64,000 bases of DNA from Mucidula mucida (lineage: Eukaryota > Basidiomycota > Agaricomycetes > Agaricales > Physalacriaceae). The notes beneath the pieces were generated by a model. The model saw nothing but the letters and a program-made list of their open reading frames with translations. It did not search any database and was not told the DNA's origin. Where the stretch lies: contig JADNYV010000124.1 in the NCBI GenBank assembly GCA_015501055.1, positions 45,892 through 109,891 of the forward strand, written 5' to 3'. This document shows, piece after piece, positions 14,425 through 24,084 of this stretch (the stretch's first letter is position 1; every line of letters starts with the position of its first letter). Position numbers and translations under genes: made by a program.

Positions 14425-17400
14425 TGCCATGTACTCGGCTTCCATTTCGGATAATGCGACTGTAATTTGTTTACGGGAACTCCAGGAAACAGCAGCGCCG
14501 GCGTATAACGTGATGTAGCCGGATACTGATCGTCGGTTGTTGGCGTCTCCAGCCCAGTCCGCGTCTGAGTAGACTTTGAGGTCTTCAGATGCGTTGTAGT
14601 GTAAAGCCATGTCAATGGTACCTTGAAGATACCTAAAGACACGCTTCAGCGCCGTCAGATGCTCTTCTGATGGACACTGGGAGAACTGGGCAAGATATGC
14701 GACTGGATGAGCAAGGTCGGGTTGCGTAGCCACGGCAAGGTACATAAGCTTGCCAAGACCTGAGAGGTATGTTTTATTGAAAATGTCGTCGCCAATGCGT
14801 GGGTCACCGGTCTCAAGCTTTGACAGCTTGATATTCGGATCAATAGGAGTATGAACTGGCTTGCAGTCACGCATGCCAAACTGTTCAATGATGCTCAGCA
14901 AGTAGTTCCGCTGGGAGAGGCATATGGCTCCAGACTTGGGGTCATGAATGATCTCCATGCCCAGAATGTGAGATAACGCTCCAAGGTCGATAATGTTGAA
15001 GTGTGCGGCGAGCTCCCCCTTAATCTGCGAAATGGCAGACTCGTCGGGAGCGAGTAGTGTCATGTCATCAACATGCACAGCTACTATTGTGGGTGGTGCT
15101 TTGTGTGAGGCTTATCGAATGAAGACACATTGGTCAGCAATAAGCTGTGTGAATCCAAGCTTTTTGAATGCAGCCATCAGCTTCTGGTTCCAAACGCAAC
15201 CGGACTGCTTAAGTCCGTATAGGGAAAGCTTGAGCTTGCAGACTCGTCCCGTGCCATCGTCAAAGCCTGATGGCTGCTCCATATAAACTTCTTCCTCAAG
15301 CTCACCATTTAGATAAGCTGCAACGACGTCCATACCATGGACAAGAAGTTTGTAACACAATGCGAGGGCTAAGAGGAAACGAAAGGTTTCAAGACAGATG
15401 GTCGGGGCAAAGGTCTGGTTGTAATTGATGCCTTGGACTTGAAGAAATCCTTTGGCGACAAGATGTGCTTTCCACTTCACTATGTGACGTTGGGTGTCTT
15501 GCTTCCGTCAAAATACCCATTGGCATGGAATAGCCTTTCGGCTGGGAGGTAAATGGACTAAGTCCCAAGTGCCGAGGGCGTTAAGCTGGTCAATCTCAGA
15601 CTGCATAGCTTTGCGCCACTGCAGTTTGTCTGGTGCGTCTAAAGCTTCTTTGAGTGACATTGGGTCGCCTGCAATCTCGCTTTCAACAGCTTCCGTCAAG
15701 AAGGCATAGTTGGTTACTTGAGCAAGACTACAAGTGGTACAGGTTCGTTTGCCCTCAATGATATTGTCAGGCATGATCTGACTGCTGATGTTGTGTGGTG
15801 CTTTGGATTTCACGGCTGGCACCGGTGCTGAATTTGGTGATGGAGGTCGTGTGGATGGCAGAGTGGTAAGTGGTGATTCTGGATTGTTGTCTGAGTCTGA
15901 ATCAATGACAGCAGTGGGCTCGCAGTAATCCATGTCAGGAAGTTTTGACTGTGAAGATTCTTCCTGCTGCTTGCTATCTGATTTATTCTCCCCCTCAAGC
16001 AAAGGAGGGAGCGAAGCAGGTATGACATAGTCATTGTCTTGTTTAGGTTTCTTGAATGTAACATTAGGCGAGGACTGTACAAGACACGATCCCGGATTGT
16101 AGTAGCGGAACACACGCAAATGATCGGAAAATCCCATCAATAGGAACTTCCTCATGTTTGGCATGAGTTTATGTCGTTTCTTGTCCTGGTGAAGAACCCA
16201 TAAGGGTGTTCTGAACGGCTGAAGGGCAGAAATGTTGGGTTTACAATGGTAAAACACCTCGTACGGCGTGATGTTCTGCGCGTGAAGTGCGCGTACCGGT
16301 GATCGGTTCTTGATATAGCACGCATATGCTACGGCTTCTGGCCATAGGTAAATGGGTAGTTTAGTGCTAAATAACATTGCCCAAGCATTGCCGAGAAGCG
16401 TAAGATTGAGGCGTTCAGCCACACCGTTTTGAGAAGATGAATAGGGAGCAGTGAGCTCCCAGTCAATGCCCTGGGATTCCAGCCAGGAGAGTACTTTGTT
16501 GTTGATGTACTCCTTGCCGTTATCAAATTGCATGCATTTGGTTTATGACCGGTTTGATTGACAATATAGGCAACATAGCCTTGTATGGCAAGAAGCACTG
16601 TGTGGCCCTGTTTGTTCTTTAAGAACTTCAGGTGTGAATACGCGCTGGATCCATCTGTGAAGGAGATGAAGTAATATTCTCCTCTGATTCCATGTGTTCG
16701 GGCAGGTCCCCACAAATTGGTGTACACCATGTCACCAATATTTGTGTATCTCCGTTGAGACGTCTTGGGAAAGGACCTGACATGTGCCTTGCCCTGGATA
16801 CATGCCGTGCACTGGTGAGGTTTTGATGAGAAATCAACCTCCATGCCATCCACCATGCCGGATGTCTTGAGATGTTTGACGGCTTGATGGTTCATGTGAC
16901 TGAGTGCACAGTGCCAGTTGTCCCATGTTCGCGCTGGATGTGCGCGAGAGATTTGCCAAGGTGTACGGACACGCAGTCTGTACATGTGGGAGACTTTATC
17001 TCCTATGGCGATGGTGGTGCCGTCAAATTGAGCGCAATATCCGGTGTTGGTAATCCGGGCCAGCAAAATAAGGTTGAATGGCGCGCTAGGGCAGTGTATA
17101 ACGTCCTTGATTGTTCCTGCTCGGGTGCGGTCACCTAGGACATATGAGAGGCTGACTGTGCCTCGTCCAATACCAGCTGCATCTCCAAAGCCCTTGATAA
17201 TGTGATCCAATGTGCTGTAATGGGTGAAATCATCTTTATTTCGGGCTATTGACTGACTACACGCGCTGTTGAGGAGCCAGTCATTGGGTGAGAGCTTTGC
17301 CTTAATGGCGGGGTCTGATGTGGCGGCAAACACAAAATTGTCGGAGTCTGACCCGTTTCCATCAGCAACGTGAGCGTGGGAGGACTTCCAACGACCATAT

Positions 17401-17459
17401 GGGCGCTTCTTCCGCCAGTTTTGGCCACCTCTACCCTGGGAATTAGGTTTTGAGTCTCC

Positions 17460-18159
17460 ATCATGTTGTTGTTGGCTTTTGAAAACCAGGTTTGTTGTGA
17501 TTGTAAGAGAAGTGTCCTGTCTTGCCGCAGCAATGGCATTTGATGGATGCTCAATCGGTCACGGCGAGAGCAGTGGATTGAGAAGCGCGTTCGCGTAAGC
17601 GGGCTACTTCTGAAAGAATACGTGCAATCACTTTTGAGGAGTCCGCAAGAGAGTCCTCAGGGATGGAGGAAATGAAGGGGTTCCAGGAATCTGGAAGGGA
17701 TGTGAGGAGGGTGATGGAAAAGTCTGCCTCCATGATGGTTTGTTTCAACGAGGTCAGTTCAGACTGATAACCACGCATGACGCGTATATGCTCTTTGATG
17801 TCGCCGTCTTCGGGACACTGGGCGCGGAAAGACTTTCGTCGCGCTAAGACGATGCCCGTAGGGCCTTTCGCCTCGTACATGTTGCGAAGAGTGTCCCATG
17901 CACCCTTCGCTGATGTCGCGTTCGCGATATAGACAAGTACATTGTCTGATACGCGTAACCTAATGGTTGATAGTGCCTTGCGGTCGCTCTTCTTCCACGC
18001 GGCTACGAGTGATGCGTCAGAGGGTGCAGCAGCGGTCTCGGCGATGTAGTCGTTGAGTGACTGGTCCGTCATGATGTCCAGCATCTTGATCTTCCATACC
18101 GGGTAATTCTCGGGACCGCGGAGGAAGTCGATGCGATAGACAGATGTGGATTCTGACAT
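17460..18159 (-). pseudogene. Copia gag (UBN2-type) with zinc knuckle remnant
   Basis: Start at 18159 gives MSESTSVYRIDFLRGPENYP, then WKIKMLDIMTD and KGAWDTLRNMYEAKGPTG, typical of copia gag. The frame ends in TGA at about 17551-17553, directly before the nucleic-acid-binding knuckle, which continues in the same frame as CHCCGKTGHFSYNH. In that knuckle the fourth ligand is histidine instead of cysteine. A second stop follows about 30 codons later. The TGA may be a mutated sense codon. Capsid function could survive, but fusion to pol could not without suppression. Confidence 0.85.
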
Positions 18160-18380
18160 TGCTGGGTAACAAACAAATGTTATTAGATGGTGGTGCGACG
18201 GTAAGTGTCGGTGCAACGTCGGTGTCGGGGGATGGTAATCGATGTGGGATGCGGATCAAAACCCGGAGCGAGCTAACCGCGGCTAGGCTCAAGCTACTAA
18301 ACGGGGATACTACGCAATACGGAACTCGGCGCGGTATACTGGCGCCTACAAAGGGTACTCGATCAACTGTCTAATAGGCG

Positions 18381-18585: not shown

Positions 18586-19852
18586 ATTCTTCTTTGCACT
18601 ATTAACTTCACCACATGGGAAGATTTAATTATCTGTATTATTTAGCGCCAGATAAATTGTGTTCCAGGGTGCTCATAGTATGGTCGAGACTTGAGTTCCA
18701 GCGAGTAAATAAGTTATAGGCGGTAACATGTGGCGCCGCCACACGGATACGAGGCGTTACGCAGTACGCGTACCGACTGCACCCTACCTACCACATTGAA
18801 TTTGTATAACGCAGCCCGCGCCCTCCATTAACCTGATTCCACCCCATACATCCGCTGCGTCGTGATCTAAAAACAGCCGACAGTACTCCAACATCGCAAT
18901 GCCCATCTCCCACCACTTGAGTACACGTATCAAAAACATACATTCCAAGAGCTCTATCTGCGCCGTCGATGTCTGCAGCGCGATACGCCTAAGACGCGGA
19001 AGGTGCTGCTTTTTCGTGGCAGCACTCCTTGGCTCACCAGCAATATACTCCAAAATCGTGCGAGGAACATCCTGATGTGCATCCCCCGATCCGAGCAGAC
19101 TGACATCCACCAGCGTCTCGTCGCACTGCATAAGTACACTAAGAACGTGCGGCGTGACCTGCGGTAGGCATAGATGGAGCGTGGTCAGCCTGCACGCGGA
19201 GCGATGGAAAAATGCAGACGTTGACGCCGTAGGCCACTCCTGCGTACTAGTATGGAGATCGAGGGTCCGGAGGCAAGGCAGCGTCATGGCTTCCAGCGAA
19301 TCAAAAACCGGGAGCTCCTCGACATCGGATTCGGGAGGAGATATGAAGATACTTCTCAGACGGGGAAGTACAATGAACCCGCGCGAGAGCGTCAGAGTCG
19401 CGGTATATGACAGCTGGTATATTCCGTGAAGGATGAGCGTCTCCAGGCCCTCCCCGTGTAGCTCGAGCACCGACAGAGGGAGTGTGCTCCGCAGGGCTAG
19501 CGTCCGCAGGTTGCATAGCTGACCGGCGAGGATACTCGGATGCTGGACCGTGTCCGAATGGACTCTCAACCCCTCTAGTGAGTGAAAGTGCTGCAGTACG
19601 ACACTGCGTTCAAAGTAGAAATCCACCGACGACGACGCGTCGATCCGCAGCTCGCGGATTCTCAGTTCGCGCAAGTCGTCAGCGTGCAACGGGGTTGGTT
19701 TTCCGGCCAGCCAGAGGGATATTGGGCGGTCTGTGAAGGTGAAGATTGGGAATTCGTGGTTTGTGCGGTAGAGTATTGTGAGGGGATGAACTTGGCCACT
19801 GCGGGCGAGTACTGTTTGGAAGTGGCTTTGGTCGAAGTGGGTGATGGGTATG

Positions 19853-19892
19853 TGAGTACGGGCCTTGGTACCAAAATCGACGGCCTATTTGG
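19853..19892 (+). repeat. Left terminal inverted repeat
   Basis: About 40 bp. Differs from the right copy at two GT/CC positions, two GA/AG positions and one A/G position. Confidence 0.88.
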
Positions 19893-20000
19893 TCTTATTT
19901 GGCTACCGGTTTTCGTGGCAGGTGAGGTGTAGACTCTCCACAGCGCCAACATCACGTCCTAGAGGTAGCTTCATGTTGGGAAATTTACTTATAATCAGAA

Positions 20001-20106
20001 TCTGCATGCAGCCCTGGGAGCAGATTTTTGCATTAATGATATTCTTTGGTTTGGCCCAAGGCTGGCAAGAGAAAATAAAAAATCTGCTCCCAGGGCTGCA
20101 TGCAGA
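20001..20106. repeat. Perfect 29-bp inverted repeat with 48-bp loop
   Basis: Arms 20001-20029 and 20078-20106 are perfect reverse complements. It lies between the left TIR and the transposase promoter. Transcripts through it would fold into a long hairpin. It may be a transposase binding or pairing site, or a tiny nested foldback element; no clear target repeat was seen around it. Confidence 0.92.
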
Positions 20107-20114
20107 TATAAAAA
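20107..20114 (+). promoter_or_regulatory. TATA-like box upstream of the transposase gene
   Basis: TATAAAAA at about 20107-20114, roughly 160 bases before the chosen ATG, directly after the foldback. Confidence 0.45.
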
Positions 20115-20270
20115 ATACAGAGTCTTCAATTTATCCGGAGTGAGTAGACGTCGTCTATGGAGGTGCACAGAGTCTACAAGCATTTCGCGCGCCGCATGCG
20201 GTGAAGTGATTACCTCAGCCTATGTTTGTTTCCACGCTCACGACGCGTCGCGCGACTTACCAGTAGCCGC

Positions 20271-23200
20271 ATGCCAGGCGTTCCAAAACGCGCCTACTTC
20301 ACCCCGCATAAGGGAAGGAGGAACCAGTGCCTTAATCTCATCAGTTCACACCCTAACTCGGGGCATCAAAAGCCTTCTTCGAGCGTAAACAAGGAAAATG
20401 ATCCGGATCTCCTTCGCGCGCCATCAAGGGCACGTCCACGTTCGAAAACATCACCGTCTTCCCACCCAATCACCATTCAGGATCGCATTCTTGGAGATAA
20501 GATGCGAGACAAGCACTACGAAAGTCGCTTTCGGAACGAGCGAAAGAAGGTTACCCGCATGCAGACTCGTCGGACCGGATTAGAGGATGAAATAGAGCAG
20601 CTAAATGTGCAACTGAAGAGCGTGATGGCTGCCAAACAGAAGGAATCTGCATTTGCCATGTCTCTTGTCCGTCAACGAGATGAGGCACTGCAGGAGATAG
20701 ATGTTCTTACGACAAAGTTGGATCAATTTCGAGAGCGGAATTGTACTCTTGTGGCTGCAAATCAAGCCCTTCAGAAACGCGTTAAACGCTTTTCTGAGCG
20801 TCTCAAGAAGGCTACCAGTAATGCTGTTGAGGACGTTGTTAACCAATCCTCAAAGGAGAAGCGGATTATCACGCCTGCAATGCGGCTCTGTGTTCTGGAG
20901 CTTGCGAAGCATGGCGTTCCCATGGATCACATTGCTGGTGTCATCCTTGCTGTTTCTGACTGCTTTGGCATACATCTGGATAGTGCTCCAAGCTCACGGT
21001 CCTGTCGACGAATTGTCAAGGAAGGTGGGATCATTGACGAGCTTCATACCATGGACCTTATGAACCACACTGAATGTGAGCTAACTTTCACATAAACTTA
21101 GATGACTCACAGCGGTTATTAGACTTCACACTCAGTGGCGACGGTACATCATATAAGAACCTCAATTACGAGGTGAAGCATGTAACGTTGACCGATTACC
21201 TGGCAGATCCATCGTTACCAGAGGCCGAACGCAAACATGTTGTCCTCGTTGATCTCTCTAACACTGCCAGTCACACCAGTGAAGCACAGCTAGCCGGATG
21301 GAAGAACCTGTGCTACAAACTTCACGATACCTATAATACATCACCTCTTGGACTCGAGAATCCCATTGACAATCGCACATTCTATACAAAGGCATGCGGA
21401 TACCTTAGTGACCATGCTCCCGATCAGACAAAACTGGTCCGGCTCTTCGTGGCGGAACGCGACCAGGCAGATCTTGAGATGAGAGGCGAGCAGGTGCTTA
21501 AATCTCTCGGTGGCGAGGAACTGGTTCAGATGGTCGTTGAACAGAATGAGACGAACATTCTCCTTGCCGGTGGAGTGGCGCAGTGGGATGCGTTGTCTCA
21601 AGAAGAGAAGGAGACACGTAACACCAAGGTTGAGCATGCGATTATCAAGAGAGTTGGCCGGGAAGCTTTCGAGAAGCTCCCAAAGGAGCAACAAGCTGAT
21701 TCACGTCGATTTGTCTGGGGTGGATGTGCAATGCACAAAGCCATCAATTCTTCGAAAGGCGGGCCTCTTACGATGATTTTAGATGTTTAGAGAACTAATA
21801 CATCTTTATAGGTGCCTTTGCCAACTTAGCACCCATGTGGGCAAAGAATAAGCATCGTCATCCAGGCCCAATCACTCTGTTCAATAAGGATAATGCCGCT
21901 GCAGCTGGCAGCTCAGATGCCGCACTTAAAGCACGCGCCGAAAAGCTTTCTGGACGGGGTGGTGTCAAGCTGATTGAGCTCATGGGAATGGTGCTGAATA
22001 ACAGCAACAAGAAGCTCGGTCAGCAGGATATGCACGGTATTTACTTTGAATCTCGCGAGCACCTCGGACATGTTGTTCGCTTTCCCGATGTCAGTAACAA
22101 CCGTTACGGAACCCTCGGATATGGTGCTGCTGAAGTCATCGCACATCTTCCTCTCTACATCGAATTCTTCAAGTTTATTCGCGAGCACAAAGCATCCGGA
22201 CAATGGACGAACATCGAACAGAATATCTACACCGCATTACACGATGATGGAACCTTGTCAGACCTTGTATGCATGACTCTCTACTCACAATCTGTTGACA
22301 TTCCGTACATGGTGATCGTCCGGGGTCAAATTCAGAACCAGCTTGACCTTCCTCCGACCCATGACAAGGTGAAAGCCCTCTGTCGACGGGTTATCGCCGA
22401 TCCGTACATTGTTTGTGGCCTCGACATGAGCTACAAAATGGCATCACTTAATGGCAAGCAGTGGCAACGTCCCGATGCTGTGTATGCAGCGTTGGCGTTG
22501 ATTCCGAGGCTACCACTTATCCCGGAAGGAACCAAAGCCACATTCGAGGGAGCGCTTGAGACATGGGAGAGGTTTACGGAGGATGAGAGAAGCGCGCAGC
22601 GTGTGGGAATGACGGAGAAGCAGAAGATGGACCACTTTCTCAGAACCACCAACGATCACAGCGAAGGTGGGGCCGGTACCACTAAACGGGCGAAGCAGCG
22701 TGCTCCAAATGCTTCCATGGATTTCATCAGTGCCAAAGCGCGGTGGACACGCAACAATCCGAAGGTGTGGGTCGAACAGAAGGAGCAGGAGGTTGGTGGA
22801 CTTTTCAAGCACGCTCGGGTTATCGTGCGCAGAGACGACGCGGATGGAGTTGTCCAAAGGAAGCGAAAGGAGATAGCAGAGCAGTCGAAGGAAATCGCAA
22901 ACGCTAATACATGCAAGCGCATGAAAACCAAGGCTCGGAAGGACAAGAAACAGCAGGAGCTAGAATTATGTGTTCCAATCGAGGATATGCGCGCGTTAAC
23001 GGAGCCGGCACGCCTCAAGACCATTACCATCGCGGCTTTGGACCTCCAGATTGACTGGCATCGAGACCAGGAGCAGAAAGTCCTCCATAAACAAGAGACG
23101 AAGGCCCATAGCACGATCAAGGGTAAACCGGCGAAAGCAGCGGCAGTCATAGCTGCAATCAAGCAGAGGAAGGGTTGGGTCACTTCTGGGCTTATAAAGG

Positions 23201-23304
23201 AGTTTTATACACCCATCGAACCAGATAGCGATGACGAGGAAGTAGGTTCAGAGTGTAATATGGACGTTGAGGATGATGCAGACATCGTTGGGTATGGAGG
23301 TTGA
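20271..23304 (+). CDS. Putative transposase of the 19853-23516 element, apparently intact
   Basis: Start ATG at 20271 (MPGVPKRAYFTPHKGRRNQ); no earlier ATG in this frame. Exons 20271-21075, 21123-21758 and 21812-23304 total 2934 bases, 977 residues, with phases that agree. The first intron is GT-AG (47 bp). The second appears to be GC-AG (53 bp) with a branch-like ACTAAT near its end. The N-terminus is basic and Ser/Pro-rich. A coiled coil follows (about residues 90-210). Then comes a globular region with YFTLSGDGTSYKNLNYE, VVLVDLSNTASH, FVWGGCAMHKAIN, FNKDNAAAAGSS, QDMHGIYFESREHLGH and FLRTTNDHSEGG, and finally a Lys/Glu-rich tail and an acidic C-terminus. I recall similar uncharacterised Agaricomycete proteins. 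Acidic residues in these motifs could form an RNase-H-like site; that is inference. It does not match KDZ motifs I know. Confidence 0.8.
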
Positions 23305-23476
23305 ATACCAGATATATTGTTTATAATATGGCTAATTTTCAGTGTACATATCAAATATACCTTTAATGCTTTCGTTTTGAGGTGTCTCGGGCAGCCTGTG
23401 GTCGACGTGGTTGGAGGAGTCAAGGTCGCGACACATTTGCCATCGATCGAGCATGATAAGGGGGAAGTAAACAATG

Positions 23477-23516
23477 CCAAACAGGCCGCTGATTTTGGTG
23501 GCAAGGCCCGTACTCA
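23477..23516 (-). repeat. Right terminal inverted repeat
   Basis: Inverted partner of 19853-19892; outermost 15 bases identical. Confidence 0.88.
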
Positions 23517-24084
23517 GGGTATGGTTGTCCAGAGGCGGGAGTTGGATAAGGAGAGGGCACGCCATCGAGATGAGGTTGATAGCATGATGTTGTGGGCGTT
23601 CTGGATAGATTTTAGGCATCGAGAGAAGGAGGTTGCGGAGATGATGCAGCGGGGCGAAGCGACCTCGGCGAGTGCGAGGAAGATTTCTGAGAGGATCTCG
23701 TTTGGGATTGTGTCCATTTAAAGAGATTAAGGCAGATTTTGGGAGAGATGGAATGACTTCTCAAGTAAGTAATGTCAGTTCAGCATAAAGAGGTTGATGA
23801 AGAGATAAAATCATCTCCGAACGTTTTCAGTCGGAGATTGAATGCTCCGCCGGTAGATTGGTTTTCCCGCGCAGTCATTGTGCCCTAGTGAATGTCAAGA
23901 CACTCGCCGACGTTACTTAGTGGTATACCCACTAAGGTACTAACCCCCTGGAAGTTGTCGCCACAAATGGATTTTCCTCCTTTTAAGTACTATCCGCGCG
24001 TATATACTTATGAGACACCTCTGCAATCACGGTATTACTGTATCTCTTCCTTCTGACACCCACGTTCTGTTGCAAAGTCCACTC

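Follow-up and report, generated by a model that had tools for sequence, protein, structure and literature searches.

A complete DNA transposon of 3,664 bp lies at positions 19853–23516 (plus strand) of a 64,000-nucleotide stretch of the Mucidula mucida genome, referred to here as the window, which is part of contig C77 in an assembly of 59.9 Mb and 1,047 contigs (GenBank GCA_015501055.1). The element carries an intact gene for a 977-residue protein, and we consider it very probable that it is an autonomous cut-and-paste transposon with a DDE transposase, representing a superfamily-rank Agaricomycete lineage with a hAT-like fold and of which no description was found. The evidence comes from the ends and target sites of the element, from a search of the element against its own genome, and from comparisons of the encoded protein and its homologues.

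The element and its target sites

The 5′ terminal inverted repeat, formed by the element's first 48 bases (19853–19900, plus strand, beginning TGAGTACGGGCCTTG), matches the reverse-complemented 3′ terminal inverted repeat, its last 48 (23469–23516, minus strand), at 40 of 48 positions, whereas the best agreement among 200,000 random pairs drawn from the window is 27. The word GGGTATG directly flanks the element on both sides, the left copy at 19846–19852 and the right copy, adjoining the 3′ end, at 23517–23523. Because this word is unusually frequent in the window (17 matches compared to 5.6 expected), its duplication at this single site would not settle the matter alone, which is decided by the remaining sites together with the empty alleles. 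Ten sites at which both ends are readable were tabulated, with the allelic partners C606 and C208 counted once with their partners, and the table omits family places at which at least one end is absent or was not located. Inverted ends are present at all ten, and eight have an exact 7-bp match and no other length when lengths of 4–10 are compared. The tabulated sites other than that in the window carry different 7-bp words and the target sites are unrelated, and the duplication as a chance occurrence of a common word is therefore rejected.

A search of joined flanks, with one copy of the duplication, against the rest of the assembly revealed empty alleles with a single 7-bp copy for the insertions in the window (C564, 658/658 bases), on C442 (C180, 645/646 aligned) and on C45 (C249, 657/658). 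The presumed empty allele of the C138 insertion, C977, is a weaker case, with 568 of 603 aligned columns identical. Parts of two haplotypes are evidently present in the assembly, so that at least three insertions are found in one haplotype and not in the other. An assembly artefact is rejected by the second copy of the element, the derivatives described below, and the empty alleles. The first-pass annotation of this DNA had reported inverted ends with GGGTATG outside both, and a complete element with recent, perhaps current, activity; the ends and their flanks are confirmed, a complete and recently mobile element is supported, and the family has inserted with 7-bp duplications and moved recently. 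The one-haplotype insertions suggest that it may still be active.

The probable transposase and its relatives

The transposase gene (20271–23304, plus strand) is predicted to have three exons, 20271–21075, 21123–21758 and 21812–23304, separated by one GT-AG and one GC-AG intron and free of inner stops. The splice junction seen in P0001, the public annotation, and in the relatives P0002 and P0003 backs the 977-residue model, confirming the three-exon, 977-residue gene proposed earlier; P0001, a public M. mucida hypothetical protein for this gene, is 829 residues long and is missing pieces of the catalytic region. We note that the GC-AG pair belongs to the second intron (21759–21811), and that a related copy on C964 has, by eye, GT at this donor.

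The putative catalytic residues are well conserved in an alignment (A4) of 36 of the 126 homologues described below. The likely first catalytic Asp, D275 (codon 21140–21142), is in the motif SGDGT in strand β1 and is Asp in 35/36 rows; the second, D365 (21410–21412), follows β4 in SDHAPDQ and corresponds to the TDHA Asp found in 36/36 rows. A CxxH motif directly after β5 (CAMHKAIN, C470–H473, codons 21725–21736) has both Cys and His in 35/36 rows with one gap, and the probable catalytic Glu, E765 (22663–22665, TNDHSEG), corresponds to the TNDxNEG Glu, also found in 35/36 rows. All of these codons are on the plus strand. In the window protein 105 residues separate the second Asp from CxxH, and 400 separate D365 from E765. 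The order D, D, CxxH, R, E is present, both by motif and by eye, with Tyr replacing Trp in the counterpart of the hAT RW motif.

Fold predictions for two homologues show an RNase H DDE domain with a helical insertion between β5 and the helix carrying the Glu. The top solved-structure match of both models is the hAT transposase Hermes, with an aligned length of 342–343 residues compared to 126 for integrase cores, from which it follows that the insertion domain matches Hermes too; the match to IS256 (ISCth4) is much weaker. P transposase is absent among the 50 matches listed in each fold search, which is an absence and not a test. Residues 1–45 of the P0004 model have predicted local distance difference test (pLDDT) values below 50, and a Pfam scan of the window protein gave no match to a BED zinc finger.

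Homologue searches returned 53 and 82 rows, giving 126 distinct proteins, none of which has a precomputed Pfam domain; all rows bearing an organism name are from species that we take to be Agaricomycetes. The family is probably larger, because scoring took in only those candidates sharing most words. These numbers support the large unannotated Agaricomycete family proposed in the first-pass annotation, and its suggestion that this is a transposase family is likewise supported, because elements of three subfamilies in this genome possess inverted ends and are flanked by 7-bp duplications. No description of the family was found in the titles and abstract beginnings of the open-access PubMed Central (PMC) papers listed by the searches, although it may be catalogued in Repbase or in the subscription literature, most of which, like Repbase, lay outside this search.

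Pfam scans covered the window protein, the 53 homologues of the first search (with 25 of the 26 matched families listed, the 26th matching at most one member) and a consensus. Within this scope there was no match to transposase models of KDZ, Plavaka, MULE or other Pfam-modelled superfamilies, and none to PF05699 (Dimer_Tnp_hAT), a model that is matched 104 times elsewhere in this genome; no TNP-like match is listed for the window protein or the consensus. The P-type GTP domain, PF21788, has no match in this genome, and is uninformative as the controls gave none either. A scan of viral contigs yielded 16 stretches matching a pattern, none of which was confirmed, and a viral fold library gave one unnamed match (E 4e-4, template modelling score 0.07), the rest being largely tape-measure and other long-helix proteins.

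Related elements in the genome

The second full copy of the element, on C442, differs from that in the window by 3 bases and 2 residues. Short copies have been mobilised as well: there are derivatives of 1,061 bp on C61 and of 952 bp on C45 and C138, the latter two with the same internal deletion, and a 610-bp element on C115 whose ends are related (78% across some 50 bases, with 17/17 at one of the tips) and which has a duplication of its own, GTAATAG. In protein searches with two homologues the family was found on a further 17 contigs beyond C77, C442 and C61, and a second search gave the same 17. A second subfamily is represented by a 3.73-kb element common to C397, C117, C606, C582 and C208, with ends TGGTGGTGGGCAT...; the flanks indicate that C117 and C606 carry alleles of a single site, and the same holds for C582 and C208. 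A third kind of element, with ends TGGTGGTCGGCAA, is found on C119. All three kinds of end have TG at positions 1–2 and GGC at positions 9–11, the exception being one end of the C115 element. C804 retains just a left end, and on C964 only a right end was identified.

For the C119 insertion, 40 of the 41 matches listed for the joined flanks cross the junction uninterrupted at 87–97% identity, showing that it lies inside a repeat. This repeat (the copy is at L015 715–4840) has ends TAGGGATGTGCGCC, an 8-bp duplication ATGGATCC and many uninterrupted copies, and is probably a hAT-type short element.

Several candidates for further intact elements were rejected. Palindromic end pairs on C723 are self-complementary flanks or long terminal repeat (LTR) stretches, and C518 has no end pair with a 7-bp match. 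On C427 (23856–27509) there is a pair of ends beginning CATTACC that agree at 11 of 14 bases, together with a 7-bp match TCCTTTT, but this is taken for chance because it is absent on C518 despite 96% likeness over 3,740 columns, and its left part is similar, by eye, to an LTR-like stretch. At C549:185113–194892 there are two similar family-member copies in inverted orientation about 6 kb apart, which may stem from a large inverted duplication or from the assembly.

The 5′ leader of the window element contains a 30-bp perfect inverted repeat (20000–20107, with arms at 20000–20029 and 20078–20107 and 48 bp between), also found in the C442, C61, C45 and C138 copies, which may act as a regulatory hairpin or be a nested remnant. 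The insertion in the window splits a host reading frame, the larger part of which is at 18784–19852 on the minus strand. In the empty allele C564 this frame (L079 3–560) begins MDTIPNEILSEIF and continues without a break across the insertion point; it is F-box-like by eye, although a Pfam scan gave no match at E 0.001. Beside the insertion, reading frames at 15508–18255 (minus strand) are Copia-type retroelement-like by eye.

Proposed mechanism and placement among DNA transposons

The transposase appears to start with a coiled coil, followed by a small helical domain that may bind DNA and by an RNase H-like catalytic domain split after β5 by a long all-helical insertion. Judging from the fold and by analogy with Hermes, the model for assembly, cleavage and hairpin formation (PMC6900584), D275, D365 and E765 would form a metal-binding triad acting by two-metal cleavage. 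The transposase would recognise ends starting TG with GGC at 9–11, assemble on both ends, and excise the element leaving hairpins on the flanks, as in hAT; both ends would then be joined to the target with a 7-bp stagger, giving rise to the 7-bp duplication. It would also mobilise internally deleted copies that retain the ends.

Several observations weigh against an autonomous transposon lineage of this rank. The fold predictions are those of two homologues, and the ends and duplications are those of M. mucida, other species being represented by proteins. Pfam matches of the window protein, all 53 homologues and the consensus are weak or restricted to single members, and are mostly to coiled coils. 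Sequence searches of solved structures with the window protein and two alignments were no more revealing: the protein and one other search gave no match, and one alignment gave five weak coiled-coil or importin matches (best E 0.086). An hhalign comparison with fungal hAT rows gave no match either, against a thin profile in which one of 15 rows (P0140) spans both D motifs. Two of the ten tabulated sites have no exact duplication: that on C397 matches at 6 of 7 bp, and C138 has none, its 952-bp derivative (L012, C138:367571–368522) being flanked imperfectly by GTTTAAG and GAA+CTTTAAG, shifted by three bases, an unexplained case of an odd footprint or a rearranged site. No empty allele for C61 was found in the assembly. 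The copy number of the family is low: an exact search for the 15-base end finds it at 11 places in the genome, and allowing two mismatches gives counts (51 and 63) that do not exceed those for a reversed control (58 and 60). The copies on C549, C394, C308, C329, C151 and C723 show no convincing ends in the stretches examined, and many other family members in this genome are decayed, with no ends found.

That the family is a divergent branch of the hAT superfamily, with sequence similarity no longer detectable and 7-bp duplications as in hAT7, we regard as nearly an even prospect. It would account for both models matching Hermes best among solved structures and for the aligned length implying an insertion domain match, and by eye the order SGDGT, TDHA, CxxH..LN, NTRY, E resembles that of the fungal hAT P0140. 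However, PF05699 is not matched within the scope given above in spite of its abundance in this genome, the profile-profile comparison with the thin hAT profile is negative, the second Asp and CxxH are 105 residues apart compared to 28 in P0140, and no BED finger is seen. The terminal bases of hAT elements are CAG-type, whereas the ends here (TGAGTACGGGC, TGGTGGTGGGC and TGGTGGTCGGC) start with TG. Duplication length also counts against a plain hAT, although hAT5, hAT6 and hAT7 show that it varies within hAT; in view of published hAT7 families with 7-bp duplications (PMC12730594), the earlier statement that such a duplication does not fit hAT is not supported. A real possibility, somewhat short of even, is that we are dealing with a new superfamily of eukaryotic cut-and-paste transposons beside hAT and P, spread through Agaricomycetes and still mobile, with the unannotated family proteins as its transposases. 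Its hallmarks would be the 7-bp duplication, ends of the form TG...GGC, an N-terminus that forms a coiled coil, and two helical insertions in the DDE domain, the first between the second Asp and CxxH and the other after CxxH.

The first-pass annotation had considered P-type and Dada elements closest, which is not supported, Hermes being the closest solved structure. Membership of, or proximity to, the P-element superfamily is unlikely, although the parts of the two homologue models do follow a similar order (coiled coil, helix-turn-helix-like domain, RNase H with a helical insertion, helical C-terminus), and the P transposase has D528 three residues before E531 (PMC7776569), a spacing shared by D732 and E735 of P0004, with D732 being Asp in 34/36 rows. 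Against this, P duplications are 8 bp (PMC7776569) compared to 7 bp at eight of ten sites here, no P-family Pfam model is among the matches listed, no THAP finger is seen, and P is not among the 50 fold matches listed per search, which does not exclude it. A Dada-type element is highly improbable: the 6–7 bp duplications and C/DxxH motif of Dada are similar, but Dada has no terminal inverted repeats, targets small nuclear RNA (snRNA) or transfer RNA (tRNA) genes, and has only 176 residues between D635 and E811 (PMC3706591), whereas here inverted ends occur at all ten sites, the sites are unrelated and that in the window is in a protein reading frame, and D365 and E765 are 400 residues apart. 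Because the features of hAT, P and Dada each fit only in part, a superfamily-rank lineage with a hAT-like fold and undecided placement best describes the family. The undescribed superfamily of the first-pass annotation may be right, in that no sequence kinship to a named family was found, although the models predict a fold like that of hAT.

If this is correct, many mushroom 'hypothetical proteins' become recognisable transposases, and Agaricomycete gene counts and repeat annotation would be corrected. The one-haplotype insertions, intact gene and short derivatives make the element a candidate working transposon tool for mushrooms, and a place between hAT and P bears on the diversification of DDE transposases with insertion domains.

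Compared to hAT as represented by Hermes and the fungal hAT, the family described here shares the RNase H DDE core, the large helical insertion after β5, CxxH, the motif order, a multi-base target duplication and short derivatives. It differs in having 7-bp rather than the usual 8-bp duplications (5-, 6- and 7-bp hAT variants are published), TG...GGC ends, an N-terminal coiled coil with no recognisable BED finger, the longer span to CxxH, and no detectable sequence similarity. The hAT7 elements of rust fungi (PMC12730594) share both 7-bp duplications and basidiomycete hosts, but are classed as hAT by transposase similarity and a tree, whereas the Pfam hAT model does not recognise the window family. 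IS256 (ISCth4), the far weaker fold match, is a bacterial copy-out element. The P element (PMC7776569) is built in the same succession, from a coiled coil and a helical DNA-binding-like domain to a split RNase H, its helical insertion and a helical C-terminus, and shares the Asp three residues before the catalytic Glu, but has an 8-bp duplication, a THAP finger and a GTP-binding insertion, and is not among the fold matches listed. Dada (PMC3706591) is alike in its 6–7 bp duplication and C/DxxH motif, and differs in lacking terminal inverted repeats, in its RNA-gene targets and in its short spacing between the second Asp and the Glu.
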